A stretch of 64,000 nt of DNA, taken from Cloeon dipterum (taxonomy: Eukaryota; Arthropoda; Insecta; Ephemeroptera; Baetidae). Positions within the stretch are counted from its first letter, which is position 1. Each line of letters opens with the position of its first letter. Location of the stretch: assembly GCF_949628265.1 (NCBI RefSeq), contig NC_088787.1, positions 2,098,501-2,162,500 on the forward strand, read 5' to 3'. A program made the position numbers and the translations under genes. The notes beneath the pieces are model-generated. The model was not told where the DNA came from, made no database searches, and was given only the letters and a program-made list of their open reading frames with translations. Below, one piece after another: positions 33,401 to 58,445 of this stretch.

Positions 33401-35040
33401 TTTTTCGTCTTTCTCACTTACCAAACTATCCTGGCTTGTTGATCCCACGTTTACGTTGCAAGGTTCCGGCCAAGCGACTGGAGCAGCGGCCGACTGTGCC
33501 AGGCGCTCAGCACTGTTTTCCCCCGCTAGTAAAGGTGAGCGCATTTCCACGTACACGCACTCTGCGGGCGCAGCTGGGATTTCTAGGCCCACACCTGAAG
33601 ATTCCTGCTCAGCAACTGAACCAGAGGCCAGGTTAGCCCTCGGAAGGCTGCCAATTTTTGGCAAATCAAAAGGCAGAGGGGCCGGCTCGGCATGGGCAAC
33701 ATTGCTGTCATCCATTTCCGCGTGCACGACGTTCCTTGCTGGTAAAGCGGGGCTCAATAGAACGTTATTGTCGTTCGCTCCGGCGGGTTGCAATGGAAGG
33801 TTGGCGCTGTCGCTGTCATTTGCGTGCGCAGCTGGGATTTCTAGGTACACGATTGACGACTCGATGTTGACGGTGGACATATTCTGAAATTGGATGTGAG
33901 ATTAAAAATTAATTTAGGCACTGATATTAAAATAGATTGTTTCAAATGCAAAATATTCGCGTTGTCTAGGTTTTAAAGCCTAGTTTGTTCTTCTTTCCCA
34001 CTTACCAAACCATCCTGGCTTGGTGAACCCACCTTTACGTTACAAGGTTCCGGCTCAGCGACTGGAGCAGCGGCTGCCTGTGCCAGGTGCTCGGCACTGT
34101 TTTCCCCCGCTCGTAAAGGTGTGTACATTTCGACGTACACGCACTCCCCTGCGGGTGCAGCTGGGACATCTTGGCACACGCCTGACGATTCCGGCTCAGC
34201 AACTGGACCAGAGGCCAGGCTAGCTCTCGGAAGGCTGCCAATTTTTGGCAGATCAAGAGGAAGAGGGGTTGGCTCGGCAGGGGCAACATTGCTGTCGTCC
34301 ATTTCCGCGTTCTCGTCGTTCCTTGCTGGTAACGCGGGTCTCAATAGAACGTGATAGAACGGGCCGTCGCCGTCATCTGGGATTTCTTGATACACGCCTG
34401 ACGAGTTGCTGGTTTTGCTGTCGTCATGTGTTGGCCCTTCGGATGCATTTGTGTTATTTAGGTCCACGTCTGTCGATTCGATGTTGACGACGACCACTTC
34501 CGGATCCTGGCCATGGTCCGCGTTCTCGTCGTTCCTTGTGGCTGGTAAAGCGGGGCGAATTTCAGCGTGCACGACGTTCCTTGCTGGTAAGGGGGGGCTC
34601 GATAGAACGTTATCGTTGTTCGCTCCGGTGGGTTGCAATGGAAGGTTGGCGCCGTCATTAGCTGGCTCTGCGGGTGCAGCTGGAAGTTCTTGGTACACGC
34701 CTGACGAGTTGCTGGTTTTGCTGTCGTCATGTGTCGGCCCTGCGGGTGCATTTGGGTTTTCTAGGTTCACGTCTGACGATTCGATGTTGACGACGGCCAT
34801 TTCCAGTTCCTGGCCATGGTGCGCGTTCTGGTTCGCAATCGAGTTGTTCTTCTTCGATTTGAGATAGAGCCAAATAATGATGAAGCCCAACAAGAGCACG
34901 ATGTAGATCAAAAGCAGATGGAGTTGGTCGAATTGGAAGCTTTTTTCCTGCTGCACCTCGGTCGGGGTTGCAATTTTGGTAGAGATACTGGTTCTGGATG
35001 GCACACGGTAGCGCTCCATTTCTCCGCTTCTCATACACAT
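30259..35040 (-). CDS. Tail-family gene A: one membrane segment and tandem tyrosine-motif exons (1352 aa)
   Basis: Seven exons on the minus strand: 35040-34006, 33883-33422, 33301-32819, 32698-32324, 32204-31656, 31535-30984 and 30861-30259. Every junction is phase 0, with near-identical donors (TTG or ATG, then GTAAGTG) and acceptors (TTTCAG/GAAATG). Exon 1 has a 39-residue N-terminus without signal peptide, a membrane segment at about residues 40-60 followed by KSKKNNS, and a long acidic, Pro/Ala/Asn-rich tail. Exons 2-7 are diverged copies of one unit that starts MS(A/T)VNI and includes AAPA, LPLQPAG and SPSQDG. Tyrosines lie in YVEM, YLPM, YFPM, YAEI, YLEI and YQEI; I count 12 YxxM motifs, the class bound by PI3-kinase SH2 domains once phosphorylated. 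The last exon ends in minisatellite-derived sequence. Likely a membrane-anchored docking protein; the role is inferred. Orientation in the membrane is inferred from the basic residues after the segment. Confidence 0.75.
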
Positions 35041-36330
35041 TCTCAATCCCTACAAACAAGTTTAATTGTAATATTCTGCTTTCCAAATTCGAAACAACTT
35101 GTCGTAAATTGCGGTGAAAATGTAAAACCGTTTTTTTTGGCGGTCTTTTTGGTGTCGACCAATCAAAAGGTTCCACGAAAACGCGGCAACCAATCATTAA
35201 TACTGTGGCGCTGCCGTCTCGATCTTTTTGGTGAACGCATCGTCATAATCAGCCAATCAGGAAGCCGCTCTTCCCCCCCCCCCCCTCTGATTGGTCGGTT
35301 GCATTCTTGTGGCACATTTTGATTGGTTTACCCAAAAACGACCAAAGTAACGGTTTTTACGTTTCCCTCGAATTTCAGCACGTTTTATCGAATATTTCGC
35401 TTACTTTGAAACCGATTTTGGCATATTGGCAAAGAAAATTTCCGGTTTTACATTTAAAAGGCAAAAATTCACACGTGTGAAAATAAATTAATATTTTAAA
35501 TTACTGAAATTTATCTGCGTGCCTTAATTCAGGGCCGATGGCTATTATAAGAGTGAAATATTGATAAGAAAGAACTTTGATATGCAATACTTTACCTTCA
35601 AAATGTAAAATTATAGCTGCGAAATATTCTGTAAGATTCGGAATCGCAGCGGTCGACGGAAACGTCCGGCCCTACTCAATGCTGAGCAACAATTGAAAAG
35701 ATAAGGAGAGTAAAGGTAGGAGATGCGAATAAACACACAGAGTCACCAAAAGAGGGGAAGGGGTGGGGGCGAACAACCAGCGAGCAAGCGACGTTCACCC
35801 CCACTCCTTCCCCTCTTTTGTCGACTCTGGCTGTTTATTCGCATCTCCTACCTTTACTCTCCTTATGAAAATTAAAAAGATGGGAAACGGGGATGAGATT
35901 GCGTAAACTCTACCTGGAAGGGATCAATCCATTGTATTTATTCAAAGAGAGAAATCTCTGCTATTTTAGGGAAAATTCCATAAATCCTTTCTGACCGATG
36001 CAACTGCTTCCTTATTCAAAAGGAATTTAGGAAAATAGCTCAGCTTCTTGGAATATATTATCTTTCTCTACACGAACAATAAAATTCAGAAATAATATAA
36101 AATATTTCGAATATTTATTTTGCTGGTATTAAATGAAGCACTTTTAGTGCGCGTCTTTCACTTGAACATTGATAATTGTATCCATTTTTTGTCTCTGTAT
36201 ATAATTTCCACGACAATGAAGACAGGCAATTAAATCCCAGGTTGTGTCAATCTTTTGTGTTTTTCTTTCCAGTTTTCAGCATTGCAGAACTTTGTCTTTT
36301 ATTTTTTCATTAAATTATGCTGCCTTGTGT
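35041..36330. repeat. 5' flank of gene A, copied upstream of genes B and C
   Basis: About 1.2 kb that recurs at 37.69-38.90 kb (same orientation) and 39.03-40.26 kb (inverted). Shared landmarks are TTTTATCGAATATTTCGCTT, ATGCAATACTTTACCTTC and ACTCAATGCTGAGCAACAAT. It should hold the promoter and an untranslated exon of this gene family. A run of about 12 C lies near 35272-35284. Confidence 0.75.
35699..35872. mobile_element. Foldback MITE, about 170 bp
   Basis: ATAAGGAGAGTAAAGGTAGG at the left is mirrored by CCTACCTTTACTCTCCTTAT at the right. The arms of about 70 bp are nearly perfect and surround a short loop. The matching places near 38.31 and 39.65 kb lack it, so it inserted after the flank was duplicated. 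Confidence 0.85.
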
Positions 36331-36762: not shown

Positions 36763-37665
36763 TCAAACCCTGCGTGGTCTCAAGGTTCCGTAGAGATGTT
36801 CCGCCTCACCAACTGGAGCAGCGGCCGGCTGTGCCAGGTTAGCCCTTGGAGGGCTGCCACTTCTCGGCAGATCAGGAGGCAGAGGGGCCGGCGCGGCAGG
36901 GGAAATATTGCTGTCGTCCATTTCCGCGTTCTCGTCGTTCCTTGCTGGTAACGCAGGTCTCAATAGAACGTGATAGAACGGGCCGTCGCCGTCATCCAGG
37001 ATTTGTTGATACACGCCTGATGAGTCGCTGGTTCCGCTGTCGTCATTTGCTGGCTCTGCGGGTGCATCTGGGACATCTTGGCACACGCCTGACGATTCCG
37101 GCTCAGCAACTGGACCAGAGGCCAGTCTAGTCCTCGGAAGGCTGCCAATTTTTGGCAGATCAAGAGGCAGAGGGGCCGGCTCGGCAGGGGCAACATAGAT
37201 GTCGTCCATTTCCGCGTGCACAACGTTCCTTGGTGGTAAACTGGGGCGCATTTGACAATATTGATCTTCGTTCGTTCCGGCGGATTGCAATGGAAGGTTG
37301 GCGTCGTTTGCGGGTACGTCTGGGATATCTTCGTACGCTCCTGACGAGTTGCTGGTTCTGCTGTCGTCATTTGCTGGCTCTGCGGGTGCATCTGGGATTT
37401 CTTGTTGAAAGCCTGACAATTCGGTGCTGGCGATGGATATTTCGTCTTCCTGGCCAGCATTGTCCTCGTTTTGGTTCATAATCGAGTAGATCCTCTTCAG
37501 TTTGACAATGAGCAAAATAATAACGAGCACGCAGAACAGGTTGTTGCAGATCAAAATGATGTTACAGAGCCGATAGAATCGAGCCTTGGCTGCGATTTTA
37601 GCACAGTTTGGTGCTTCCTCAGTTGTCCATGAGCTGCTCTCCATTCCTTCGGTATTCATATCCAT
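36763..37665 (-). CDS. Tail-family gene B: membrane segment with tyrosine-motif tail (300 aa)
   Basis: Single coding exon, ATG at 37665, preceded by an acceptor (TAG/GGATTGAGA), so an untranslated exon lies upstream. There is no signal peptide. Residues about 34-54 form a membrane segment (NIILICNNLFCVLVIILLIV) followed by KLKR. The tail is rich in Pro, Ala, Asn and Asp and has tyrosines in YEDI, YCQM, YVAP, YQQI, YHVL and YGTL. The end aligns with the exon ends of gene A, but the donor GTAAGTGAG is here ATAAATGAG, so the frame runs into a stop instead of being spliced. The membrane segment closely matches that of the Yellow gene at 44.42 kb. Probably an adaptor-like membrane protein. Confidence 0.75.
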   Translation of the reverse strand: MDMNTEGMESSSWTTEEAPNCAKIAAKARFYRLCNIILICNNLFCVLVIILLIVKLKRIYSIMNQNEDNAGQEDEISIASTELSGFQQEIPDAPAEPANDDSRTSNSSGAYEDIPDVPANDANLPLQSAGTNEDQYCQMRPSLPPRNVVHAEMDDIYVAPAEPAPLPLDLPKIGSLPRTRLASGPVAEPESSGVCQDVPDAPAEPANDDSGTSDSSGVYQQILDDGDGPFYHVLLRPALPARNDENAEMDDSNISPAAPAPLPPDLPRSGSPPRANLAQPAAAPVGEAEHLYGTLRPRRV

Positions 37666-40288
37666 TCTCAATCCCTACACAAAAGATTAATAATTATTGT
37701 ATTATTTGGTTTTTAAAATTCGAAACAACCTTGTCGTAAATCGCGGTAAAAATGTAAAACCGTTTATTTTGGTGGGATTTTTGGTGTCGACCAATCAAAA
37801 GATTCCACGAAAAAGCCTGCGACCAATCATTAATACTGTGGCGCTGCCAACTCGATCTTTTAGGCGAACGAATCGTCATCATCAGCCAATCAGGGAGCCG
37901 CTCATCCCCCCTCTGATTGGTCGGTTGCATTCTTGTGGTACAATTTGATTGGTTTACTCAAAAAACACCAAAGTAACGTTTCCGTCGAATTTCAGCACGT
38001 TTTATCGAATATTTCGCTTACTTTGAAACCGATTTTGGCATATTGGCAAAGAAAAGTTCCGGTTTTTACTTTAAGGACGGAAAAGTTCACACGTGAAAAT
38101 GAATTATCATCTTAAATTACTGAAATTCATCTGCGTGCCTTAATTCCGGGCTGATGGCTATCATAAAAGTGAAGTTTTGATAAGAAAGACCTTTGATATG
38201 CAATACTTTACCTTCAAAATGTAAAATTATAGCTGCGAAATATTCTGGAAGATTCGAAATCGCAGCAGTCGACGAAAACGTCTGGTCCTACTCAATGCTG
38301 AGCAACAATTGAAAAGAGGAGAAACGGGGATGAGATTGCTTAAACTCTACCTGGAAGGGATCACTCCATTGTATTTATTCAAAGAGAGAAATCTCTGCTA
38401 TTTCCAGAAGGTAAAATTCCATAAATCCTTTCTGACCGCTGCAACCGCTACTGTTCAAAAAGGAATTTTAGGAAAATGCCTCAGCTGCTTGGAATATTTT
38501 CTCTACACGGATAGTAAAATTCAGAAATAAAAGATAAAATATTTCGAACTTTTAATTTGCTTTGTATTAAATTAAGCATCTTTAGTGCGTCTTTCAATGG
38601 AAGGTTGATAATTTTATCCATTTTTTGTCTCTGTCTATACCAATATAAAGTAGACAGGCAAAAAATCCCAGGTTGTGTTCATCAGTTTGGATTATTATGT
38701 GGTTTTGTATTCCAGTTTTCATTATTCATTTCACTGGCATGTTTCTGCGGCTGAGATTAAATTATTTCCTTTCAGCAGCACTTAAATATCCTGCTCTATA
38801 TTGGAGAGTGCTTATAGGGAGAGTTTGCGGTGGACGCTGACCAATGCGCAGCTGTCCTACGCACTGTAGATTCCCCGTCTCTTCCCACATAAAAATTGGC
38901 ACTACAGCTAAATTCATGGGCAGGTTTCCGCGGTGGAATTCTCGAAAGCGCTCGGTTCCGTGTTATGTCATAAAACTAGTCACGCACGTTCCATTTCCAT
39001 AGACACGAAGAACTTCATGAATTTAGCTGTAGCGCCAACCGCATGCGCACATTTAAAAATGGGAAGAGACAGGAAAGCCGCAGTGCGCAGGCCAGCTGAT
39101 GCGCATTGGTCAGCGTCCGCCGCACACTCTCCCTATAAGCACTCTCTAATGTAGAGCAGGATATTCAAGTGCTGCTGAAAGGAAATAATTTAATCTCAGC
39201 CGCAGAAACATGCCAGTGAAATGAATAATGAAAACTGGAATACAAAACCACATAATAATCCAAACTGATGGACACAACCTGGAATCATTTTGCCTGTCTT
39301 CTTTAAATTGGTATAGACAGAGACAAAAAATGGATAAAATTATCAACCTTCCATTGAAAGACGCGCACTAAAAATGCTTAATTTAATACAAAGCATATTT
39401 TAAATTTTCGAAATATTTTATCTTATTTCTGAATTTTATTGTTCGTGTAGAGAAAGAGAAAATATTCCAAGAATCTGAGCTATTTTCCTAAATTCCTTTT
39501 TTGAATAAGGAAGCAGTTGCATCGGTCAGAAAGGATTTATGGAATTTTCCCTTCTGGAAATAGCACAGATTTCTCTCTTTGAATAAATACAATGGACTGA
39601 TCCCTCCCAGGTAGAGTTTACGCAATCTCATCCCCGTTTCCCCTCTTTTCAATTGTTGCTCAGCATTGAGTAGGACCAGACGTTTTCGTCGACCGCTGCG
39701 ATTTCGAATCTTCCAGAATATTTCGCAGCTATAATTTTACATTTTGAAGGTAAAGTATTGCATATCCCAGTTCTTTCTTATCAAAACTTCACTTTTATAA
39801 TTGCCATCAGCACGGAATTAAGGCACGCAGATAAATTTCAGTTATTTAATATGTTAATTTATTTTTACCTGTGAATTTTTCCGTCCTTAAATGTAAAACC
39901 GGAACTTATCTTTGCCAATATCGGTTTCAAAGTAAGCAAAATATTTAATAAAACGTGCTGAAATTTGACGGAAACGTAAAAACCGTTACTTTGGTCTTTT
40001 TTGAGGAAACCAATCAAAATGTGCCACAAGAATGCAACCCACCAATCAGAGAGGGGATGAGCGGCTTCCTGATTGGCTGATTTTGACGATGCGTTCGCCT
40101 AAAAGATCGAGACGGCAGCGCCACAGTATTAATGATTGGTCGCCGGCGTTTTCGTGGAATCTTTTGATTGGTCGACACAAAAAAACCGCCAAAATAAACG
40201 GTTTTACATTTTCACCGCGATTTACGACAGTTTGTGTCGAATTTTAAAAATCAAATATTACAATTAAACTTTTGTGTAGGGATTGAGA
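37666..40288. promoter_or_regulatory. Shared divergent upstream region of genes B and C
   Basis: About 2.6 kb of inverted repeat between the start codons. It should contain a promoter and untranslated exon in each arm. I see no clear TATA box. Other than the palindrome itself no gene is seen. Confidence 0.45.
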
Positions 40289-41860
40289 ATGGATATGAAT
40301 ACCGAAGGAATGGAGAGCAGCTCATGGACAACTGAGGAAGCACCTAACTGTGCTGAAATCGCAGCCAAGGCCGAATTCTATCGGCTCTGGAACATCATTT
40401 TTATCTGCACCAACGTTTTCAGCGTGCTCATTTTTTGGCTCATTCTCAAACTGAAGAGGAACAACTCGATTGCGAACCAGAACGAGGACCATGCTGGCCA
40501 GGAAGACGAAATATCCATCGCCAGCACCAAATTGTCAGGCTTTCAACAAGAAATCCCAGATGCACCCGCAAATAACGGCGACGGCACCAACCTTCCATTG
40601 CAATCCGCCAGAAGGAACAATGATAACGTTCTATTGAGCCCCCCCTTACCAGCAAGGAACGTCGTGCCCGCTGAAATTTTCCCCGCTTTGCCAGCCACAA
40701 GGAACGACGAGAACGCGGACCAAGGCCAGGAACTGGAAATGGCCGTCGTCAACATCAAATCGTCAGACGTGGACCTAAAAAACCCAAATGCATCCGAAGG
40801 GCCAACACATGACGACAGCAGAATCAGCAACTCGTCAGGCGTGTACCAAGAAATCCAAAATGCATCCGCAAATGACGGCGACGGCCCGTTCTATCACGTT
40901 CTATTGAGCCCCGCTTTACCAGCAAGGAACGTCGTGCCCGCTGAAATTTTCCCCGCTTTACCAGTCACAAGTAACGACGAGATCGCGGACCATGGCCAGG
41001 AACCGGAAGTGGCCGTCGTCAACATCGAATCGTCAGACGTGGACCTAAAACGCCCCAATGCACCCGCAGAGCCAGCAAATGACGACAGCAGAACCAGCAA
41101 CTCGTCAGGCGTGTACCAAGAAATCCTAGATACATTCGCAGCGCCAACAAATGACGACAGCAGAATCAGCAACTCGTCAGGCGTGTACCAAGAAATCCTA
41201 GATACATTCGCAGCGCCAACAAATGACGACAGCAGAATCAGCAACTCGTCAGGCGTGTACCAAGAGATCCTAGATACATTCGCAGCGCCAACAAATGACG
41301 ACAGCAGAATCAGCAACTCGTCAGGCGTGTACCAAGAAATCCAAAATGCATCCGCAAATGACGGCGACGGCCCGTTCTATCACGTTCTATTGAGCCCCGC
41401 TTTACCAGCAAGGAACGTCGTGCCCGCTGAAATTTTCCCCGCTTTGCCAGCCACAAGTAACGACGAGAACGCGGACCCTGGCCAGGATCCGGAAGTGGCC
41501 GTCGTCAACATCGAATCGTCAGACGTGGACCTAAAACACCCAAATGCACCCGCAGAGCCAGCAAATGACGACAGCGGAACCAGCGACTCATCAGGCGTGT
41601 ACCAAGAAATCCCAGACGCACCCGCAAATGATGGCGACGGCCCGTTCTACGACGTTTTATTGAGACCCGCGTTACCAGCAAGGAACGACGAGAACGCGGA
41701 AATGGACGACAGCAATATTGCCCCTGCCGCGCCGGCCCCTCTGCCTCCTGATCTGCCGAGAAGTGGCAGCCCTCCAAGGGCTAACCTGGCACAGCCGACC
41801 GCTGCTCCAGTTGGTGAGCCGGAACATCTCTACGGAACCTTGAGACCACGCAGGGTTTGA
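40289..41860 (+). CDS. Tail-family gene C: membrane segment with tyrosine-motif tail (523 aa)
   Basis: Single coding exon; start ATG 40289 follows an acceptor (TTTGTGTAG/GGATTGAGA). There is no signal peptide. The membrane segment at about residues 33-53 (NIIFICTNVFSVLIFWLILK) is followed by LKRNNS. The tail has many copies of SSGVYQEI, and FYHVLL or FYDVLL, and ends in HLYGTLRPRRV like gene B. Three near-perfect 72-bp tandem units lie at about 41110-41330, each coding for VYQEILDTFAAP and NDDSRISNSSG. As in gene B, the donor at the exon end is changed to ATAAATGAG and the frame stops there. Inverted partner of gene B. The open frame over 1.5 kb of repeat expansion argues that it is expressed as protein. 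Confidence 0.78.
   Translation: MDMNTEGMESSSWTTEEAPNCAEIAAKAEFYRLWNIIFICTNVFSVLIFWLILKLKRNNSIANQNEDHAGQEDEISIASTKLSGFQQEIPDAPANNGDGTNLPLQSARRNNDNVLLSPPLPARNVVPAEIFPALPATRNDENADQGQELEMAVVNIKSSDVDLKNPNASEGPTHDDSRISNSSGVYQEIQNASANDGDGPFYHVLLSPALPARNVVPAEIFPALPVTSNDEIADHGQEPEVAVVNIESSDVDLKRPNAPAEPANDDSRTSNSSGVYQEILDTFAAPTNDDSRISNSSGVYQEILDTFAAPTNDDSRISNSSGVYQEILDTFAAPTNDDSRISNSSGVYQEIQNASANDGDGPFYHVLLSPALPARNVVPAEIFPALPATSNDENADPGQDPEVAVVNIESSDVDLKHPNAPAEPANDDSGTSDSSGVYQEIPDAPANDGDGPFYDVLLRPALPARNDENAEMDDSNIAPAAPAPLPPDLPRSGSPPRANLAQPTAAPVGEPEHLYGTLRPRRV
41110..41335 (+). repeat. 72-bp tandem repeat inside gene C
   Basis: Three almost identical units containing CGTGTACCAAGA(A/G)ATCCTAGA, in frame, each adding one YQEI motif. 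The near identity points to recent expansion. Confidence 0.88.
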
Positions 41861-44418: not shown

Positions 44419-47248
44419 ATGTCTCCGTTCTTGTGCGCCATTTTCTTGCTCAACCTTTCGTCCATGGCCAGGGCCGTCAACTTCACGCAAGTCTTCGAGT
44501 GGGATGAAATGGACTTCGAGTGGCCGTCGGAGGAAAGCAGGACACAGGCCTTTGAAAATGGAACTTTCAAACCAGAGAACATCCTTCCTCGTTACATGGC
44601 TGTGTACGGAACAAGGATCTTCCTCAGCCTTGAGAATAATAAAGGCATTCCGGCGACTCTGGTGACTTTACCCACGAGCAGCGCGTCCTCTGCACCTCCG
44701 AAGCTCTCTCCATTTCCTTCGTGGGAGATGAATGTATGTAGCAAAAAATAATATGCCACTCGTTGTACAGTTGAATTAGGAAAATTTGGTCTTAATCTGC
44801 AAAGAAAAGCATTGCTTGTGTACTTTAAAGAGCCAGCGAGGCCTTTTTGCTCTTTCACCGCACGAGTGATGCCCGTTTTTTCACGACCTTTATTTGTGTA
44901 ACGCTAGAAAAATGCTTACACGCGTTAAAGATTTGAAAGAAATTTAATTTAAAAAAAAATATGTGAAATGCTTTGTAAAAATGTCAATTAACAATTTATT
45001 TAAAATTTTTCATTGATCTTCTGACTGAAAATTTGAGGACACAAATGTGTGTATGTATGTGTGTAATAACATATATAAGAAATTTTAAAATTTGTTATTA
45101 TTTCTTAAAGATACTTGCCTAGAAAAAATTATCAAAAATTTGAAAATTTCTTTTTGTACAAGTCAATTAGGTTTTGAAAAAAAAAAACAATTCCTCTTCT
45201 TACAGAAAAATGGAAACTGCAACAAAATTAATGAAGCAAGAGGGCTTCAAGTGGATTCCGTTGGAAGGCTGTGGGTGCTGGACGCATGGAGCAAAAATTG
45301 CAGTTCGAAGCTTTGGACCATCGACTTGGCTAAAAATGATGACACCAAACTAATTCATCAGTTTTCTATTCGCTATGAAATGCACGATTTGGTGCTCGAC
45401 GAATCGCCAAACGGAACCTTTACCTACATCTCGCATTTGAATGAACAATACATTGCCGTGTTTAGTTTGGAAAGAAATGAATCTTGGACAGTGGACACGC
45501 CAGGAATCAAGGTTTCTTCCATTACGCTGTCCCCTAAGGATCAGGAACCGAGACAGCTCTACTTTGGCGGATGGAACTCCAATGAACTCTATTCAATTTC
45601 CGTCGCCGCACTTCGCAACGGAACACAGACTGCAAATCCGAAACTAATCGGAAACTGGACTGCAGCTAATTCATACAGAATGCTGACTGACAACCACGGG
45701 ACCATATTTGCCGCCTTTTTATTTGAGAAATACATACAGTATTGGAACACATCCCAGCCATTTGAGGATCAGCGTTTTTATGAGGTAGGTCACCAATTTA
45801 AAATAGCATTTGAGAACAGAATCCAAAATTTTGATCTAATTTGTTGAAAATCGAGCTTGGGCTTTTCAGTGATTCAAATTATGATGCTGCACACATTTTC
45901 AAATATGCGGTTATAAAATATTTTTCCTCTTCAATCAGACAATTACGTTAAAATATATTAGTTAGATTTAATTTACTTTAAAACGAGGAAGAACGATTAT
46001 TGAATTCCTTAGTCGGAGAAATTAATCTACATATTCGTATATTTTCTTGTGCTTATGTAGTCGCAGGAATAAGTGAAAATTTAATAATAAAACCGTGCAT
46101 TGTTTTGTGGCAGGAAATTAATTAATATGGTCTCAACTTAACTAAATTTAAATATGTTCCTAGCTCACAAGCGAGATGATTTTGTTTTTAAAACAATCAA
46201 AATTGAACTGCTGCATTTCACAAATATTTTTCTTTAAACTTCCAATCATTTTTCGTATTTTTTATAATCATTGATCCGGTATGCATTGCTTTGTTTTAGT
46301 TCGATGCACTAAATTATCATTATTCTCCATTTACTTTTGCCCTGGACCAAAATGGAACATTTTGGATGACGGTGTATGATGTAAAAAGAAAGCCAATATG
46401 CAGGCTTTTGAAAGCTGCTGAAGTCGAAGAAAAATCCCTCAAAGCCTCGTCAGGTGAGTTTCATATTTAAACACACAACTTTTTAATTCCAAATAGAATG
46501 AAAAACGGTGTCCAGTGCACTTGAGATCCTTTTATTAATTAATTATTTCAAAATTCCATTCATTGCATTGCAGAAACTGTTCACGAACCAATTTTCAATA
46601 TTCTTACGATTAATTATTTTGATTTGAAATTCCATTTTAGAACAAATGACATCATGCGTTGATCTTCCAGTTAGGCCATTCTAATCACCAAAAAACCTAA
46701 TTAAATGCCTTCTGTTTACCGTTATTACAGAACTATCCATCATTCTGATCTGCTCCATCGTGTTCTGCGTAATCCTTCTGAGTCTGATCATTCTTTGGCT
46801 CATCCTGAGACACAGGAGGAACAATTCCCTTCCATCAAACACCAACGAGACCCAGGAAATGTCCGTCTTTCCCAACGAGCCACCCGAGTACCACGAAGTC
46901 CAATATGGAGATTCGAGAAGTGCCGCCGAGTACGAAAACGTCGGCGCCGAGGAAGGACTGTACGAAGAAGTAAAATACGACCAGGTTGGTGCCACGCCCT
47001 CTTCTCCTGGTCTCTACGAGCAGCCGATATGTCTCAGCCCGCGATCGGCGAGGAGAGTGAAAGCGAAGCCTGAGAGGCCGCGGACTTTCGAAGAATTTGG
47101 AGATGCGCCTCTTGCTCCAGTCGAGTACGACGACGTCGGCCCTCCTGAACCGGATGAACCTCTCTACGATGAAGTTGCACCGGACTACACCACACCACGT
47201 TTCGATGACACTTCTGAATCGGCACAGTACCTGAAAATCTTGCCATGA
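44419..47248 (+). CDS. Yellow-domain protein with membrane segment and tyrosine-motif tail (521 aa)
   Basis: Four coding exons: 44419-44733, 45206-45784, 46300-46453 and 46731-47248, all GT-AG and in frame. Residues 1-19 are a signal peptide ending MARA. Residues 20 to about 345 follow the Yellow/MRJP family: EWPSEESR, a fifth-strand LVTLPTSSASSAPP block, SPFPSWEM, LQVDSVGRLWVLDA, MHDLVLDE, YWNTSQPF and FALDQNGTFW, with many N-glycosylation sites. Exon 4 then adds a membrane segment (about 351-375, LSIILICSIVFCVILLSLII then LWLIL), the stop-transfer RHRRNNS and a 140-residue tail with YHEV, YENV, YEEV, YDQV, YDDV, YDEV and a final YLKI. YENV fits the Grb2 SH2 consensus (YxN). Ordinary Yellow proteins are secreted and lack this part. 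Likely a type I membrane receptor; the ligand and kinase are unknown. Confidence 0.88.
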
Positions 47249-48255: not shown

Positions 48256-49741
48256 TTAGGCAGTACCAATCTCGTGACACGAACCGGAGCATACTAAAGG
48301 AATAGATAAATAATATAGCATGATATATATGTTTATAATGAGATTATTGGCAAGATCTTGACCGATTTCCTAGAACGTTTCAGGGTAACAATTTTATAAC
48401 TAATACAAGCAGCAATTCATGCTTTGACTTAAAATTATAAGCGGAACAATATGAGAGCAAGAATAAGGCGTATTTTATAAATAGTAATAAACTTCTCAGA
48501 GGAAACTAACCTTTCAAAATCCTGTATATGGGCCTTTTTATTATATCCATAACCATCATCCAAAGAGTTCCATTTTGGTCCAACGCAAAAGTAAATGGCC
48601 AAACAAAATCCAATCCGTCGCCCTAAAATCAAGGAATGCACCGACTTAACAAGTAAGAATTAAAGCGAAAGAAACGAACATGTTCGATATTTAATTGTAA
48701 AATAGGAGCCAGGGATGATCACACATAAGATGGATCTTTTCAAAATTTGAACTTAATTGTTTAATAATTTAATAAATCGATTCTTACCTGATAGACACGC
48801 TGCTCCTCAAATGTCTGGGATGTGTTCCAGGAGTGTACGTAATTCTTCCACAAAAAGGCGGCGTACATGGTGCCATGGTTGTCAATCAGCATGCTATAAG
48901 TTCTAATTGCTGTCCAGTATCCAACTAGTTCCGGATTAGCAGTTCGAGTTCCGTTGCGGATGGCGGCGACGGAAATGGAATACAGTTCATTGGTGTGGTA
49001 GTTGCTAAGGTAGAGCTGTCTCGTTTCCTTCTTAGGGGAAAGGGCGATTGAAGATGGATTAATTTCTGGTGTGTCCACAGTCCACGATGCATTTCTTTCC
49101 AAACTAAACACGACAATGTATTGATTTCTCCACCGCGTGATGTACGCAAAGATTCCGTTTTGGGTTTCTTCGAGAACCAAGTCGTGCATCCAGCCGTGAA
49201 AACAAAACCGATGAATTAGGTCGGTTTCATTGGTGTTTAAGTTGAAAATCCATAGTGTGGCATTGCAGCTATCGCTTCCCGCATCGAGCACCCACAGCCT
49301 GCCAACGGAGTCCACTTGAAGCCCTCTTGCCCGTTGAATCTTGTTGCAGTGTCCCGGTTCCTGCAACAAAAAGTAGATCGAGTTGTTGGCAATGAATTTT
49401 TAATTTTTGCAACTTACATTAAGATGGATGTCCCACGACGGAAATGGAGTGAGCTTCGGGGGTGCGGAGGACGCGCTGCTCGTCGGCAGAGAAACCAGAG
49501 CGGCCGGAATGCCAATATCTTTGGCCAGGCTGAGGAAGATCCTTGATCCGTAGACAGCCATGTAACGAGGAGACATATTTTCTGGTTTGTAAATTCTGTC
49601 TTTCAAGGCCTGTGCCCTGATCGCCTCCGATGGCCACTCGTAGTCCAATCCATCTGGCCACTCGAAGACCTGAGTGAAGTTGGCAGCGGTGGCCAGCGAT
49701 GTAAGGCTGAGCAAGAAAATGGCGACGAAAAACGGGGTCAT
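48256..49741 (-). CDS. Secreted Yellow-family protein 2 (348 aa)
   Basis: Exons on the minus strand: 49741-49418, 49360-48788, 48622-48511 and 48293-48256. Signal peptide MTPFFVAIFLLSLTSLATA, then NFTQVFEWPDGLDYEWPSEA and the Yellow propeller motifs (LQVDSVGRLWVLDA, VFSLERN, ALSPKKETRQLYL, WNTSQTF). After the FALDQNGTLWM segment a 12-residue tail follows and the frame stops; there is no membrane segment. At about 350 residues it is shorter than fly Yellow (about 540). The third exon is shorter than in its neighbours and ends at ILK. Exon 1 and the start of exon 2 are nearly identical to those of gene 3. Confidence 0.85.
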
Positions 49742-50053
49742 GCTTCCAGCCTCTTTCAACAGTCTCTGTGTGTGATAAGGAAATTATGTGAAATGTAGAA
49801 CCAAGAGTGTCCAGAAAAATGTTAATTTGATCCCAAGAAATGTATAATTGTCTTTCCATGGGAAATTGCGCCTCAGGATGACGATTTCTATTCTAATTTC
49901 TCACGCAAAAGGACCAATTTGGCGACAAAACATTAAACAATATTTTTGTATTATTCTCTGCACCAAATTTCCTTCCTATATTAGTTCAATATTAAGTAAA
50001 AATGGGAATCTAGCTGACTAACGAGAGTTGAATAAGAAAAAGGAATTGCTTAC

Positions 50054-50121
50054 CAGAAGTGATGGTTTGTCGCTGCTAGCTGTTTTAGACTGAGCGCATT
50101 ATTCACGAGCGCCTTTTTATA
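50054..50121 (-). promoter_or_regulatory. Promoter and untranslated exon of Yellow gene 2
   Basis: On the minus strand TATAAAAAGG (50121-50112) is followed some 25-30 bp on by TCAGTC, an arthropod-type initiator. A short untranslated exon then ends at donor GTAAGCAATT (50053). Confidence 0.75.
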
Positions 50122-51073
50122 TCAGAGAAAAACCGCATAGGAAAGGGCAAGCGATTTCGTCAGTCGGGCGAAGAGGCAAACTGCGTGATACTATTTAAAA
50201 AATATTATTTCGTGCTGCAAGAAAATTGAGCATCGCATGAGGTCGAGAAGGTTACTGTCGCTTCGGTCTTGACCTCTTTCTATCTCTAACAGCGAAAAAC
50301 AATTCAATGTAGATAAAACACAAACCGAAATGTGGAGTTATTTAATTGTACAGGCTCAATTTATATGTTTCGTTGTTAAGAACACGAAAAATAAACATTT
50401 TATTGTCAAATATTTCGATAACTAAAGACCAAACTCGCATAAATTATGGCGGATACGTGATTAAATTGCCTGACTGCCGCACACAATCTTGTCACTTGTT
50501 TTTTCCCAATTTATCTTTTGGAGTGAGTGAATTTTATGCGTTTTTCGTTGCGGCCGAACGGAAAAAAGCAAAGGTCAAGATCACGAGAGCATCATATGAG
50601 ATCTCTGCGCGTCTCAGGCTCATTATTTATTTAAGTAATGCGAATGTCTTTTTTTGCGCATTAGTGTGCCCTTCCTGGAACAACCTTGAGGCAGGCCGAG
50701 TGTATTTGTTTAAAAACAAAATCGCATTTATAAAGCTTTGTACTTTACTTTACGGGTTAATGTCACGAAATTCAACCCCTCTTTTGTCAAATAATTTTTT
50801 GACTGCAAATAATCAGAATAAATTCGTATTTTTTTGGGCGTCTTAATAAAGTTGCTAAAAGAGTTGATCGATTTAAAAGTTCGCACTAAAAATATAAAAA
50901 CTGACGATGTTCTGGTTTTTTGTGAAAAGAAAAACTCGCAAATAATTTCCAGAAAACATTTAATATATCCCAACTAAAATCACTACTCGAGGCTTTGCAT
51001 GGAAGTCGGGCAGGCAGGTGCACTCCCAGGGTGGGTCACAGCAGTTTTCGCCCTTCCATCAACACTTCTGACC
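50122..51073. other. Spacer between Yellow genes 2 and 3
   Basis: AT-rich, with traces of the upstream sequence found before the other Yellow genes (GCGATTTCGTC, GGTCGAGAAGG). One plus-strand frame of 166 codons (50346-50846) looks like chance. Confidence 0.4.
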
Positions 51074-52541
51074 TTAGGCAGTATCAGGATGCACGTGCTG
51101 GAGCATTCTAAAAGCATAGAAAATTAATTGAAATATAATTAACGTGAAATGTTTTAAATTGAAATTTCCGAGAAAATTTCAGGGTGAGCAACGTAGCAGA
51201 TTAACTAATTAAAAGCAGCCCCTTTGGAAAAATTGCTGAATTATTTCATTAAAATGTGTCAACGCTTTGACGTTAGTCCAGAGGAATTTACCTGGCGAGG
51301 ATAAACGACTTTGCACCGACTGCAGCGTTCAAAGTCCCGAATCTTGGAAATTTTGCGTCATCAAACACTGACATCCAAAGAGTTCCATTTTGGTCCAAGG
51401 CAAAGGTAAATGGCCAAGAAGATTTCAGTCCAGCCACCTAAAACAAAAAAGCAATGAACCAACTTAACAGAAAGAATCATTGAAATTGAACGTGGAGTTA
51501 TGAAAAATGATGAAATGCACGCAAATTATTAAAATTAATGTTCAATATTGGGATCGAGACAGGGCTGATTACGCTTACTTTGAATTTGGTTTCATACCTG
51601 ATAAAATGACTGGGATGTGTTCCAAGAGGACATTAAATTCTGATACATAAAGGCGGCGTGCAAGGTCCCGTGGTTGTCCATCAGCATTCTATACGCTCTT
51701 TGTCTATTCCAGTTTCCGATTACCTTTGGTTTAATAGTTCGAGTCCCGTTGCGGAGAGCGGCGACGGAAATTGAATGAAATTGAGTTGAGTGCAATTCGC
51801 CGATGTAGAGCTGTCTCGGTTCCTTCTCCTTAGGGGAAAGAGCGATGGATGAAACATCGATTCCTGACGTGTCCACAATCCAAGATTCATTTCTTTCCAA
51901 ACTAAACACAACAACGTGGCTTTCCATCCAGCGCGCGACGTAGGCGAAGGTTCCGTTGGCCGTTTCGTCAAGCACCAAGTCGTGAATATAGAAGTAAAAA
52001 GAAAATCGATGAATCAGTTCGGTTTCATTGTTGTTTAAGTTGAAAATCCATAGTGTGGCATTGCAGCTATCGCTTCCCGCATTGAGCACCCACAGCCTGC
52101 CAACGGAGTCCACTTGAAGCCCTCTTGCCCGTTGAATCTTGTTGCAGTGTCCCGGTTCCTGCAACAAAAAGTAGATCGAGATGTTTTGGCAATGAGTTTT
52201 TAATTTTTGCAACTTACATTAAGATGGATGTCCCACGAAGGGAATGGAGTGAGCTTCGGGGGTGCGGAGGACGCGCTGCTCGTCGGCAGAGAAACCAGAG
52301 CGGCCGGAATGCCAATATCTTTGGCCAGGCTGAGGAAGATCCTTGATCCGTAGACAGCCATGTAACGAGGAGACATATTTTCTGGTTTGTAAATTCTGTC
52401 TTTCAAGGCCTGTGCCCTGATCGCCTCCGACGGCCACTCGTAGTCCAATCCATCTGGCCACTCGAAGACCTGAGTGAAGTTTACGGCAGTGGCCAGGGAT
52501 GAGAGGCCGATCAAGAAAATGGCGACGAAGAATGGCGTCAT
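51074..52541 (-). CDS. Secreted Yellow-family protein 3 (354 aa)
   Basis: Exons on the minus strand: 52541-52218, 52158-51598, 51437-51292 and 51107-51074. Signal peptide MTPFFVAIFLIGLSSLATA, then the same family motifs as gene 2. The end of exon 3 has a small deletion relative to genes 4-6 (SFILAR instead of SYIYEDSP), which changes the phase of the last junction; the last exon codes for MLQHVHPDTA. No membrane segment. Confidence 0.83.
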
Positions 52542-52699
52542 GCTTCCAACGTTTTTCAACTTTTGACAAAAGGAACGAAGAAATGAATATTAAAAGGGAA
52601 AACACGTAGAAAATGCGATGAAAGGCACAATGCAGCAATCGTTTCCTTCCAATTTTCATGGAGCTAAATAGACTAACGTGAAGTGAATAAGAAAAAGGA

Positions 52700-52772
52700 A
52701 TTATCTTACCGCAAAAGAGATGGTCCGCTGCTCTTTTAGACTGATTGCAATATTCAAGAGCGCCTTTTTATA
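52700..52772 (-). promoter_or_regulatory. Promoter and untranslated exon of Yellow gene 3
   Basis: TATAAAAAGG at 52772-52763, initiator-like TCAGTC near 52745, and a donor GTAAGATAA near 52700. Confidence 0.72.
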
Positions 52773-52859
52773 TCAAACAAGCAAGGCTGAGAGGAAAGGG
52801 CAAAACGATTTCGTCTCAAGGGCGACGAGCCAAACTGCGAAGATAAAATGGTTAACTAT

Positions 52860-53866
52860 ATACATGGCCCAATTGTATAAGTTCAATGCTGATGGGGCAG
52901 AGGAAAATGAGATTACTAAAATATTTTAAGCAGCTAATAAGAGCTAAAGATCATAAACTGTCGAAACTAATTGTTTATTTTTATGAAATTGCTGCATCAT
53001 TTTACAAATTAAAAAAAACTATGAAGAGGTCGAAAAGGCTGTCACTTATTTGGTATTGACCTTTCTCCTCTCCATATGAGATAAACAATTCACGATTGAG
53101 AAACGTGTACCATAAAAATTTAAAATTAAAATGCGTTTCAATTGCAGTAAATTAATTCAAAAAGGTATTATTTGATTTTAGCAGCGCGAAAAAGAATATC
53201 GTTTGCTTCAAATATTTGGTCGACTGCAACTAATCATTTAATTAATTCTGACGAGCACGCATGTGAATAACACACCCCTGACACCTGATGACTGCCGCAC
53301 ATTATCTTTCCTGCTGTTGTCACGTGTATCTTTTAATTTTTCAAAATTATATTGCAAATGTTTTGCGTTCTGGCCGAACGGGAAATTTTTCTTTTTTTGC
53401 GCGAGAGGAGCAGCGTGTCAAGAGCAAGTTCATATCGTGAAAAGACAAAAAAGCAGCTAAACTCGCGCCTTTTAACTCACTCTCGGCTGACACTGAATGG
53501 TTTTTAAGGCAATCTTTGCTCGTCTGGGGTTTATTAGTGAAATAAATGTGATGCTTCTATTTTACGGATTATTGTTTTCATCCGGCAAAAAACTTAACGC
53601 AGTTCGAGTGTATTTATTTATAAACAAAGCTGCTAAATTAGTGCAGGTAGTTGGTGAAAAGTAAAACTCGCTAATAATTTCCCAGAAAACATTTAATATC
53701 CAAAAAAATCTCTACTCGAGTCTACAATCGTTTTTGAGGTCAATTTGCACGGCAGCCGGGCAGCCAGGTACCCTCTCAGGGTTGGTCACAGATGCCGTGG
53801 ACGCAGCCAGGGTGGGTTTTTCTTCCATCCAACCTTGCAAAAGACCTCTCCCGACCTTAGGCAGTG
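52860..53866. repeat. Segment duplicated at 59.77-60.76 kb
   Basis: Nearly the whole spacer downstream of Yellow gene 4 is repeated downstream of Yellow gene 6. Shared landmarks are ATGCTGATGGGGCAGAGGAA, GTGTCAAGAGCAAGTTCATA and GGTCACAGATGCCGTGGACG. A weaker copy lies at 56.1-56.75 kb. Confidence 0.85.
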
Positions 53867-55488
53867 TCACTCTCGTGATTCTAAAGGTATAGAAAATTGA
53901 TTGAAAAGAAAAAAGGGTGAGTCTCAGATCGAAAATCTTGGCATATTTCCGATATTATTTCGGAGTGATCAAGATAACACGATATGGGAGCAAGAAAGTC
54001 GTATATATGTAACAAATTTCCCAATATTGAGTCCAGAAAACACGTACCTGGCGAGTCCTCGTAGATGTACGATTTGGCACCGACTGCAGCCTTCAAAAGC
54101 CTGAATCTTGGCATATTTTCGTCATCAAACACTGTCATCCAAAAGGTTTCATTTTGGTCCAAGGAAAAAGTAAACGGCCAAGAGGATCTCAGTCCAGCCA
54201 CCTAAAACAAAGCAATGACGATGAAACATTAATCGGAAATATGAAAAACTGATTATTAAAATTATTGTTCAATATTGAAGTAGTATTTTGAAGCCTGGAA
54301 TGAGTGAGTACACTTACATATACTGATTTTACTTTTTCAAACAAATATTTCTCATAAGACGTGGTAAACTGATATTACGAAAAAAATCGCAAAACTCATT
54401 TAACGATGCAACAAATTTTTGCAAATGTTCGAACACTTTAATTTATTGTGATCGGACACACGTTATATTATTTAAACTTTTTTCATACCTGATAAAATCT
54501 TTGCTCCAGGAATGGCCGGGATGTGTTCCAAGTGGAAGCGTAATTCTGATACATAAAGCCGGAGTACAAGGTCCCGTGGTTGTCCATCAGCATTTGATAT
54601 GTATCCCGTACACTCCAGTTTCCCATTAGATTTGCTGTTCCGTTTCCGTCGCGGAGTGTGGAAGCGGAAATTAAATGCAGTTGTTTGTAGTTTAAATTGC
54701 TAAGGTAGAGCTGTCTCGCTTCGTGACCCTTAGGAGACAGGGCAATGGACAAGACCACGATCCCTGGCGTGTTGACAATCCAAGATTCATTTCTTTCCAA
54801 ACTAAACACAACAATGTGTTTTTCAACCCATCGAGCGATGTAGGCGAAGGTTCCGTTGGCCGTTTCGTCGATCACCAAGTCGTGCAAATAGTCGTGAAAT
54901 GAAAATCGATGAATGAGTTCGGTTTCATTGTTGTTTAAGTCAAATATCCATAGTTTTGCATAGCAATTGGAAACGGAGCTGCCCTGATCGAGCAACCACA
55001 GCCTGCCAACGGAGTCCACTTCCAGCCCTTCCGCCTCTTGAATCTTGCTGCAGTTTCCCAATACCTGCGAAATGATAAATTTAATTGTTGGCATTTCCGA
55101 AAAGTGAATCATATGAATTGCCTGAATTTTTACATCGAATAGCATTTATATTTCTGCTACTTACTTTACGATGCATGTCCCACGAAGGGAAAGGGGTGAG
55201 CTTCGGGGGTGCGGAGGACGCGCTGCTCGTCGGCAGAGACACCAGAGTCACCGGAATGCTAATGGATTCCTTAAGGCTGAGGAAGATTCTTGAACCGTGG
55301 ACAGCCATGTAACGAGGATAAATTTTCGCCGGGTCGTAAGTTCCGTACTCCAAGGCCTGTGCCCTGCTGGCCTCCGACGGCCACTCGTAGTCCAGCTCAT
55401 TGGGCCACGCGTAGACCTGAGTGAAGTTGGCTGCGGTGGCCAGCGATGAAAGACCGAGCAAGAAAGTGGTGACAAAAAATGGAGACAT
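53867..55488 (-). CDS. Secreted Yellow-family protein 4 (355 aa)
   Basis: Exons on the minus strand: 55488-55165, 55064-54489, 54201-54048 and 53880-53867. Signal peptide MSPFFVTTFLLGLSSLATA, then NFTQVYAWPNELDYEWPSEA and LEVDSVGRLWLLDQ. The third exon reads VAGLRSSWPFTFSLDQNETF and ends SYIYEDSP; the last exon adds only ESRE before a stop. Several N-glycosylation sites. No membrane segment. Confidence 0.85.
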
Positions 55489-55765
55489 TGTTCCAGCGCG
55501 TTTAACTGTTGACAAAAGGAACGAAGACATTTAAAAAACATGCAGTCGTGATAAGGACTTTTAGAGGAAACAGAAAAAAATGGAAAACGTAGAAAATGCG
55601 AGAATGGCAATCACAGATAACGAAAAGGCATGATGCAGGCTGTAATTAAAAAAAATCTTCCAGCAAATGAAAAATGTGTATTAATTTAATCATAGTGGTA
55701 AATAATAATGAATTAAAATATGTGAATCCAGCAGACTGACGGGAATTTAATAAGAAATAGGAATT

Positions 55766-55834
55766 TCTTACCAGAAGTGATGGTCCCCGCTTCTGTTTTA
55801 GACTGATCTCATTGTTCAAGAGCACCTTTTTATA
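55766..55834 (-). promoter_or_regulatory. Promoter and untranslated exon of Yellow gene 4
   Basis: TATAAAAAGG at 55834-55825, TCAGTC near 55806 and a donor GTAAGAAATT near 55770. Confidence 0.74.
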
Positions 55835-55839
55835 TCAGA

Positions 55840-56758
55840 GAAGAGCTTCAGAGGAAAGGGCAAACGATTTCGTCTCAAGGGCGACGAGTCAAAATGCGAT
55901 GATACAAGCCAAGCAACTTTTATTTGATCTTGACCTCTCTCCTCTCCAAATGCGATAAACAATTCACGATGGAAAAACATGTACCATAAAAATATATGAA
56001 ATGCGTCGCGAGTGCAGTAAATTATTTCAAAATTGATTAAATTTTTTAATAGTATAGCAACGCGAAAATAATTCCTTTTGCGTCAAATATTTTGTCAACT
56101 GCCAATTATAACTTAATTTATTATGACGAGCACGTGTGTATAAAAATCCTGACACATGAATGCCGCACATTATCTTTGCTGCTGTTGTTACGTGTATTTT
56201 TTTTATTTTTCTCAACTTATTTACACGTTTTGCGTTCTCGCCGAACATAATTTTTCTTTTTGGCCATAGAGGACGAGCATCTAGGTAAAAAACAAGCCAC
56301 CGAAGGGACGTTTTCAGCTCGTGAAAATACACAAAAGCAGAAAAACCACTCACTCTCGGCCGTCTCGGCCGGCACTGAATGGTTTTTTAAGGCAATTTAT
56401 GCGCGTCTGAGGTTTATTGGTGAAATAAATGTGATGCATATATTTTACGTATTTTAGGGTTATTTTCTTCCTGGAAAAAACTTAAAGCAGTTCGAGTGTA
56501 TTTATTTATAAACAAAGCTGCTAAACGAGTGCAGGTAGTTGGTAAAAAAGTAAAACTCGCAAATAATATCCCAGAAAATTTTAATATTCAACTAAAATCA
56601 CTACCCGAGTCTACATTCGTTTTAGAGGTCAATTTGCACGGCAGCCGGGTGGCCAGGTTCCCTCTCAGGGTTGGTCACAGATGCCGTGGACGCAGCCAGG
56701 GTGGGTTTTTCTTCCATCCAACCTTGCAAAAGACCTCTCCCGACCTTATAAGGCAGTA
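55840..56758. other. Spacer between Yellow genes 4 and 5
   Basis: Diverged relative of the 52.86-53.87 kb segment; the last 200 bp are close to it. No gene seen. Confidence 0.5.
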
Positions 56759-58290
56759 TCACTCTCGTGATTCTAAAGGTTGATTGAAAAGAAAAAAGGG
56801 TGAGTCTGAGACTTACAATCTTGACCTATTTCCAAGATAATTTCAGGGTGATCAAGATAGAACATTAACTAATTAAACCAGCAATTAATCCCCCTTGAGA
56901 AAATTGTTGCTAAAGTTCTCCATTGAACTGTGTCAACGCTTTTACGTTAAATAATGTTCAGTGATAAAGGAGCAAAACATTTCCCAATTTTTAGCCGAGA
57001 GGAAACGTACCTGGCGAGGCCTCGAAGATGTACGATTTTGCACCAACTGAAGCCTTCAAAAGCCTGAATTTTGGAATTCTCACGTCATTATACGCTGCCG
57101 TCCAAAAGGTTCCATTTTGGTCAAAGGCAAAAGTAAGTGGCCAAGAAGATCTCACTTCAGCCACCTAAAACAAATCAATGAACCAACTTATCAGATAAAA
57201 ATCAATGAAATTTGAAAAACAGAAAATATTTTTTCATATAAATTATTGGTTTCATACCTGATGAAAAGGTTGCTCCAGAAATGGCTGGGAAGTGTTCCAA
57301 GTGGAAGTGTAATTCTCGTACATAAAGGCGGAGTACAAGGTGCCGTGGTTGTCCATCAGCATCCTATACGAATTGTGAGCAGCCCAGTTTTCGATTAGTC
57401 GCGGTTCTGTAGTTCGATTTCCGTTGTGGAGAGCGGCGACGGGGATTGAATAGAGTTCTTGGTAGCCCGATCTACCAAGGTAGAGCTGTCTCGGTTCCTG
57501 ATCCTTGAAGGACAGGGCAATGGAATTCACCTGGACTTCCGGCGTGTGCACAATCCAAGATTCATTCCTCTCCAAACTAAACACAACAACGTGGCTTTCC
57601 ATCCAGCGCGCGACGTAGGCGAAGGTTCCGTTGGCCGTTTCGTCGAGCACCAAGTCGTGAAAATATTCGTCAAAAGAAAATCGATGAATGAGTTCGGTTT
57701 CATTGTTGTTCAAATTGAAGATCCACAGTTTGGAACTGCAATTGGAATCAGAGTTTCCCTGATCGAGCACCCACAGTCTTCCGTCGGAGTCCACTTCCAT
57801 CCCTTCTGCCTGTTGGATCTTGTCGCAGTTTCCCGATCCCTGGAAAAAGAAGAATCGCGTGTTTGACATTTCGTAAAAGGGATTCAAGCTAAAATAATCA
57901 TGCATTGCTCAAAATGGCTGCAACTTTCCCCATTTAACGTGTACATATTTTATTTTTGCTACTTACATTAAGATGGAAGTCCCACGAAGGGAATGGGGTG
58001 AACTTCGGGGGTGTGGAGGACGCGCTGCTCGTCGGCAAAGACACCAGAGTCACCGGAACACCATCTTCTTTAAACAGAGTAAGGAAAAGCCTTGTTCCGT
58101 AGACAGCCAAGTAACGAGGATGAATTTTCAGTGGGTTGAAAGTTCCATCTGCCAAGGCGTGTGCCCTGCTTTCCTCCGACGGCCACTCGTAGTCCAATTC
58201 ATTGGGCCACTCGTAGACCTGAGTGAAGTTGGCGGCGGTGACCAGCGATGAAAAGCCGAGCAAGAAAATGGCGACGAAGAACGGAGTCAT
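56759..58290 (-). CDS. Secreted Yellow-family protein 5 (357 aa)
   Basis: Exons on the minus strand: 58290-57967, 57839-57258, 57164-57011 and 56772-56759. Signal peptide MTPFFVAIFLLGFSSLVTA, then NFTQVYEWPNELDYEWPSEE, MEVDSDGRLWVLDQ, VFSLERNESW and WNTSQPF. The third exon has VAEVRSSWPLTFAFDQNGTF and ends in SYIFEASP; last exon ESRE and stop. No membrane segment. Confidence 0.86.
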
Positions 58291-58445
58291 GCTTCCAACG
58301 TTTTTCAACTGTTGACAACAAGGAACAAAAACATGAAAAATTGCAAATACCAAATATGTACATTCAATTAAGTAATTAATGTGTTAAAAAATGTCAATCC
58401 CATAGCTGACTGACGAGATTTAAATAAGAAAAAGGAGTTTCTTAC

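Follow-up and report, generated by a model that had tools for sequence, protein, structure and literature searches.

The stretch of DNA analysed here, the window, comprises 64,000 nucleotides of the mayfly Cloeon dipterum (C2:2098501-2162500), and positions are given in window numbering unless C2 is indicated. On its forward strand lies a gene of four exons whose joined frame is open and encodes a predicted product of 521 residues (Table 1). The exon borders proposed in an earlier sequence-only reading of the locus hold, since all three introns are of the GT..AG type, with phases 0-0-1, and a mechanical splice search picks the identical three introns. Compared with PF03022, the whole protein scores 67.5 bits (cut-off 19.8, E 1.6e-18), which places it in the Yellow/MRJP family. 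The same reading had the Yellow propeller continue in frame into a hydrophobic segment and a basic stretch, and this is what exon 4 encodes: a hydropathy scan gives a 25-residue segment, as was suspected there, and RHRRNN follows directly and opens an acidic tail of 146 residues. The secreted, anchor-free state is usual for Yellow/MRJP proteins rather than strictly defining, and the product departs from it by its hydrophobic segment and basic flank. An order of signal peptide (judged by eye), ectodomain, one transmembrane segment and tail fits the sequence, the hydropathy and the structure model of a paralogue. The frame of exon 4 is open over 46685-47248, without an in-frame ATG ahead of the membrane segment.

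Pfam detects PF03022 in the protein but no Ig domain, and nothing above cut-off either in the tail or in the tail-only frame, which leaves an origin of the tail from a known domain unsupported. The ectodomain carries nine N-glycosylation sequons against 3.6 expected, a weak point in favour of the receptor-like shape; the tail has two against 0.55 expected, and the propellers of paralogues have four to seven. Reading through the exon 3 donor over 46454-46470 adds five residues and a stop codon (by eye), so that retention of this intron would yield a secreted form of the protein.

The main caution at this locus is that the gene seems to be unannotated, while all five of its neighbours have a protein record. 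Among the best 120 of 135 public protein matches listed, the best identity to the target locus is 67%, and a search with the tail alone returned only P0003, P0080 and P0005, with no record of the gene itself. The neighbours are Yellow genes, and none of the five proteins that match them has a late hydrophobic segment; P0051, P0065 and P0044 match exon 2 of their genes at 99-100% (the first two also exon 1), P0062 matches exon 1 at 97%, and P0033 shares 180 of 183 exon-2 12-mers. The window also contains three propeller-less frames with a similar membrane segment and tail, whose pairwise omega is 0.71-0.99 with intervals reaching 1. Two of them, 36763-37674 and 40280-41860, sit on the arms of an imperfect palindrome, which has its centre near 38980 and whose arms are up to 97% complementary. 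An isolated piece resembling Yellow exon 3 lies at 20337-20430 (+), and the other propeller exons were not found near it.

Table 1. Features of the target gene and its surroundings in the window. Retention of tyrosines refers to aligned paralogues.
Feature	Position	Strand	Remarks
Exon 1	44419..44733	+	Residues 1-105; signal-peptide-like start MSPFLCAIFLLNLSSMARA (judged by eye), then first part of the Yellow propeller
Exon 2	45206..45784	+	Residues 106-298; propeller blades 2-5
Exon 3	46300..46453	+	Final propeller blade and juxtamembrane linker; phase 1 at its end
Exon 4	46731..47248	+	Transmembrane segment, basic stop-transfer, cytoplasmic tail, stop codon
Predicted transmembrane helix	46733..46807	+	Residues 351-375; hydropathy scan; AlphaFold2 helix 377-414 in paralogue P0003
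Predicted cytoplasmic tail	46808..47245	+	Residues 376-521; modelled with low confidence in the paralogue and presumably disordered
YHEV, Y403	46889..46900	+	Gap in 5/7 paralogues, Y in the remaining 2
YENV, Y417	46931..46942	+	Y retained in 3/7
YEEV, Y427	46961..46972	+	Y retained in 6/7
YDQV, Y432 (YDxV type)	46976..46987	+	Y retained in 5/7
YEQP, Y445 (YxxP type)	47015..47026	+	Y retained in 5/6
YDDV, Y482 (YDxV type)	47126..47137	+	Y retained in 1/5; alignment unsure there
YDEV, Y495	47165..47176	+	Within YD(D/E)V(A/G)P block; Y retained in 6/6
YLKI, Y516	47228..47239	+	Close to the C-terminus; Y retained in 4/5
Five Yellow genes	48512..62964	-	No tail exon detected; match P0033, P0051, P0065, P0062, P0044
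Propeller-less frame	40280..41860	+	Open frame; similar transmembrane segment and YQEI/YHVL tail
Second propeller-less frame	36763..37674	-	Open frame; transmembrane segment and YQEI/YHVL tail
Third propeller-less frame	33973..35049	-	Open frame; transmembrane segment and YQEI/YHVL tail

The Yellow family of C. dipterum

The Yellow family of C. dipterum is one of more than a hundred gene copies, most of them in the outer parts of C2. Searched with PF03022, the genome shows 199 matches counted by exon, spread over several contigs and including ordinary yellow genes. Exon 2 of the target gene has at least 150 matches at an identity of at least 57% (the best 150 of 373 candidates were scored), of which 148 are stop-free; 143 fall on C2, 134 of these within the first 5.4 Mb and nine beyond 35.5 Mb, and seven on C1, C3 and C5. 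The latter lie at 41.9-42.2 Mb on C1, 35.39 Mb on C3 and 31.43 Mb on C5, and one weaker PF03022 match stands at 7.44 Mb of C2. For the tail exon the genome yields 101 matches with E up to 0.01, its own locus counted, and 100 of these are on C2. All 120 listed protein matches (the best 120 of 135) come from C. dipterum, and a search with residues 385-534 of P0100, its tail, returned nothing beyond P0100 itself.

The architecture of the target gene recurs in this family. Best-scoring splice phases are 0-0-1 in all eight genes modelled from genome sequence, five of them long-tailed and two short-tailed; the eighth, L020c, runs off the end of the sequence retrieved, which is also why L023 is without its start. 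The public predicted isoform X2 P0003, with 100% query coverage, maps to C2:35886017-35888424 at 94-98% in four exons of the same order, and P0003, P0005, P0100 and P0118, all from other genes, are public predicted proteins with the same succession of propeller, transmembrane segment and tyrosine tail, recorded under names such as yellow-like, bee-milk or hypothetical protein. Among 22 tail copies chosen as nearly full length and at least 59% identical, 13 are preceded on the same strand by an exon 2 no more than 3.5 kb away and three have one downstream, as counted with an incomplete list of 143 C2 exon-2 matches and eight others. Seven of the nine remaining copies were fetched, and three of these show all four exon types. 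In one of the loci with all four types, L037, the frame of exon 2 appears to be broken; L038, L039 and L040 have full-length tail exons but no propeller exon in the roughly 3 kb fetched upstream, and at L042 exon 1 and the tail were found but not exons 2 and 3.

Other members end differently. By a hydropathy rule applied to the 120 database proteins, 76 have no late hydrophobic segment, 25 a transmembrane segment with a short tail, 13 a transmembrane segment with a tyrosine tail (P0004, P0083 and P0086 doubtfully so) and six a GPI-like end. The GPI-anchor-like hydrophobic C-terminus is seen in P0007, P0008, P0009, P0020, P0030 and P0041, and P0016 is similar by eye. Alternative last exons within one gene were not found among the 120 proteins, the one flagged pair being neighbouring genes. 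At L015 (near 4955-6038) and L018 (near 7351-8596) the public models P0097 and P0106, nearly identical to the respective genes, appear to be secreted, and a match to the membrane type of tail lies directly downstream at both, which would be a missed exon or an alternative end. A small frame at L024 2937-3506 (+) combines a signal-like start, a short ectodomain, a transmembrane segment and two YDDVGP motifs; judged by these features, it is a tail-only, adaptor-like protein within the array.

Tyrosine motifs of the tail

The seven motifs named in the sequence-only reading (YHEV, YENV, YEEV, YDQV, YDDV, YDEV and YLKI) are all present, and YEQP can be added to them. The tail contains six YxxV against 0.61 expected and three YDxV against 0.04 expected, and none of 100,000 tail shuffles gave counts as high for either. 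The proposal that these are motifs of a signalling type stands as far as their excess over chance is concerned, but they are not alike, and about five of the ten tail tyrosines are kept among close paralogues, the others being present in some and missing from others. Best kept among eight closer tails are those of YEEV, YDQV, YEQP, YDEV and YLKI (four to six of five to seven). The ten tyrosines together are kept in 32 of 56 aligned cells (57%) versus 516 of 862 (60%) for all residues, and the seven tyrosines of YxxV/I motifs in 69%. Of 28 tails, two of whose rows represent a single gene, 25 contain YDxV and 23 the block YD(D/E)V(A/G)P. The Y, D, V and P of the block do not vary among 11 selected tails, a set that left out four with a weaker block: at the YDEV place P0014 has C for Y and P0100 and P0111 differ, while P0023 ends earlier.

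An ITAM (YxxL/I, 6-12 residues, YxxL/I) was considered and rejected, the tail having a single YxxL/I (YLKI). To the ITIM pattern, (I/V/L/S)xYxx(I/V/L), there are two matches against 0.16 expected, neither with S at -2; VKYDQV is partly conserved among paralogues, VEYDDV rarely.

Tail omega between the target and the two L012 genes is 0.51 (0.33-0.80) and 0.56 (0.36-0.91), with intervals below 1; for the L012 pair (0.86) and L023/L024 (0.64) both intervals reach 1, and for the target and L034 the value is 0.39 (0.17-1.06). Within the limits set by these mixed intervals, the codon comparisons indicate that the tail is under selection. The receptor-like shape proposed for the protein is well supported by the tail omega below 1 against two paralogues, by the recurrent tyrosine block and by the exon order and phases of the paralogues, whereas signalling is the part of that proposal that we infer.

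The propeller and its variable face

In the AlphaFold2 model of P0003 the propeller has a pLDDT mostly above 90 and the tail one below 50. The best Foldseek matches of the model are the Yellow-family structures 9w1k, 5yyl and 3q6k, and through this paralogue the ectodomain of the target is predicted to be a six-bladed β-propeller. Using the strands of the model and 55 sequences of alignment A1, we found a loop entropy of 1.95 bits for BC+DA, which make up one face, versus 1.29 for AB+CD on the other, a difference that none of 100,000 permutations equalled, and the BC/DA loops hold 29 of the 40 most variable positions. Omega by region, estimated within the C. dipterum family from exon 2 of 32 genes (231 pairs pooled), is 1.05 (0.77-1.43) for BC+DA, 0.42 (0.28-0.62) for AB+CD and 0.39 for the strands. 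Restricted to the eight tail-bearing genes, the estimates are 1.12, 0.42 and 0.37, respectively, and the BC+DA value is 0.89 in a loosely defined short-tail group and 0.71 in the five neighbours of the target gene. On the variable face, relaxed constraint may account for an omega near 1, which is no proof of selection for change.

In the usual propeller topology the last strand exits on the AB/CD side, so that the variable BC/DA face would point away from the membrane and probably is the membrane-distal one. A residue of LJM11 that contacts serotonin, Thr327 (according to an excerpt of PMC5094789), stands opposite Leu at the extreme end of a weak alignment with the target, too weak for judging the ligand pocket.

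Probable exchange of the tail exon

L034 (C2:1997219-1997734), the closest of the tail copies, is 93% identical to the target in the tail and 67-71% in the propeller exons, with a dS of 0.087 (0.035-0.151) for the tail and 0.412 (0.316-0.537) for the propeller. Upstream of 46700 most 100-base bins show a nucleotide identity of 0.67-0.86 between the two genes, intron 1 containing a large gap; identity rises to 0.94-1.00 over 46701-47200 and drops past the stop codon. Tail dS is lower than exon-2 dS in 26 of 28 pairs of eight tail-sharing genes, although the pairs are not independent and L037 entered the comparison with part of exon 2. It is lower than whole-propeller dS in 1980 and 1951 of 2000 codon bootstraps for the target versus the L012 genes, in 1827 of 2000 for the L012 pair and in 1418 of 2000 for L023/L024. 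With tail dS this far below propeller dS, protein constraint alone does not explain the likeness of the tails, and the simplest reading is that the tail exon has been passed between genes by gene conversion or exon exchange.

On a FastTree propeller tree of 151 rows, with many weak branches, locus rows built from exon 2 only and some locus labels that are rough because they are based on a nearby tail match, the 14 tail-bearing rows need 13 changes versus 13.6 with shuffled labels; at least eight of the 13 are forced by starred branches. The ending classes are scattered, and P0023, which has a tyrosine tail, is sister at 99 to the GPI-like P0007. The tree fits repeated loss and exchange alike, and it is dS that points to exchange, for some pairs.

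Proposed mechanism and alternatives

The sequence-level part of our interpretation comprises the fusion, the family, the low tail dS, the variable face and the recurrent motif. As an explanation of the whole, we favour with moderate confidence an anchored propeller with a variable face and a phosphotyrosine tail, encoded by an exchanged exon, that signals through SH2 domains. The signal peptide would send the six-bladed Yellow propeller outside the cell, and the helix would anchor a type I single-pass protein whose disordered inner tail offers phosphotyrosine docking sites. The distal face of the propeller would vary freely while its core and opposite face are held. The exon for the membrane segment and tail would have spread among genes by gene conversion or exon exchange, and by being passed between genes it would let diverse ectodomains share a single signalling module. 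Ligand binding or clustering would then lead to tail phosphorylation by a Src-type kinase, YDxV sites would recruit Nck/Dock, Dock being the insect Nck, and other SH2 proteins would be brought in by YExP and YEEV; the SH2 domains of Crk, Grb2 or Src would fit YExP and YENV/YEEV. The recruited adaptors would drive actin remodelling, for example in engulfment or adhesion. Relatives that are secreted, end GPI-like or have a short tail would serve as decoys or as partners that are soluble or do not signal. A precedent is nephrin, in which three phosphotyrosines bind the Nck SH2 domain (excerpt of PMC4238058), and the title of a reference within PMC9333988 has phosphorylated YDxV motifs and Nck reorganise actin. 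The membrane topology, phosphorylation, signalling, ligand, adaptors and cellular role are predictions of this model. Most likely, then, the proteins are cell-surface recognition proteins that signal through SH2 adaptors, perhaps with Nck/Dock as the adaptor. That well over 100 genes form a repertoire of recognition receptors built from Yellow propellers, with a variable head, a constant gene-converted tail and decoy, GPI-like and short-tailed partners, for immunity, self-recognition or chemosensing, is a possibility that we hold tentatively.

Other explanations can be set beside this one. The protein might be a membrane-tethered Yellow without signalling, its membrane segment doing no more than keep a propeller with a binding or enzymatic function at the cell surface, and its tyrosine tail being used for endocytic sorting or under loose constraint. 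YxxV can double as a YxxPhi sorting motif, tail tyrosines overall are kept no better than other tail residues, and short tails (25/120) and GPI-like ends (6/120) are found in the family; however, YDxV in 25 of 28 tails is more specific than sorting requires, and two comparisons put tail omega below 1. We consider this explanation rather unlikely. A reproductive or nutritive role, in which these are egg-envelope or brood-feeding proteins whose membrane forms are uptake receptors or anchors, would suit the 76 of 120 proteins without a late hydrophobic segment, and other Yellow/MRJP proteins serve in eggshells and larval food, according to excerpts of the literature; it seems quite improbable, and alone it leaves both the recurrent YD(D/E)V(A/G)P block and the omega near 1 on one face unexplained.

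Two further alternatives concern the locus itself. An intact-looking member of a duplicating array might give no stable mRNA, and the array does include orphan and broken copies, while no protein is listed for the target locus versus one for each of the five neighbours. Four open exons with good splice sites, a tail omega below 1 and a public predicted protein of like shape from another place on C2 make such an unexpressed copy improbable, and it would touch this locus, not the family. The idea that exon 4 is a separate, tail-only gene to which the Yellow exons are joined on paper only, which would have undone the sequence-only reading, can draw on the tail-only frames of the window and on three fetched tail copies without a propeller in about 3 kb. 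It is contradicted by the four-exon order and phases repeated in other genes and by the lack of an ATG ahead of the membrane segment of exon 4, and we rejected it as extremely improbable.

Comparison with known systems

Yellow proteins have been studied as pigment enzymes and as components of royal jelly and saliva. Among the papers listed in a literature search, thin in its coverage of subscription papers and preprints, none dealt with an expansion of Yellow genes in a mayfly or with a transmembrane Yellow, and the terms yellow and royal jelly do not occur in the main text of the C. dipterum genome paper (PMC7250882). We found no earlier report of a membrane Yellow with a tyrosine tail, in line with the view that no Yellow protein of this shape had been described; the shape is, however, not unique to this gene, which belongs to a large array, and public databases already contain predicted proteins built in this way. 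If signalling holds, insects would have in these proteins a novel class of cell-surface receptor, and one on which to test how exon exchange keeps a variable head and a shared tail together. The finding also raises the question whether other mayflies carry membrane Yellow proteins.

Within the Yellow/MRJP family (PF03022), the Aedes dopachrome conversion enzyme (9w1k), MRJP1 (5yyl) and sand fly LJM11 (3q6k) share with the target the propeller sequence and, through the P0003 model, the fold. To our knowledge, the known members, these three included, are soluble and secreted, and unlike them the target adds a transmembrane helix and a tyrosine tail. The Nck sites of nephrin are Y1176, Y1193 and Y1217 (excerpt of PMC9333988). 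A single membrane segment and several YDxV tail motifs are common to nephrin-type receptors and the target, in which the motifs are 50 and 13 residues apart; the nephrin ectodomain, however, consists of Ig domains and that of the target is a Yellow propeller, with tail phosphorylation only predicted. Vertebrate paired receptor sets of the KIR/LILR kind have long-tailed, short-tailed, GPI and soluble members. Like the Yellow array, such families combine related ectodomains with different anchors, and in the Yellow array the tail exon has apparently been exchanged among members; in contrast to the paired receptors, the Yellow ectodomain is unrelated and its tail has no ITAM. The target resembles both the nephrin-type and the paired receptors in design and is a member of neither.
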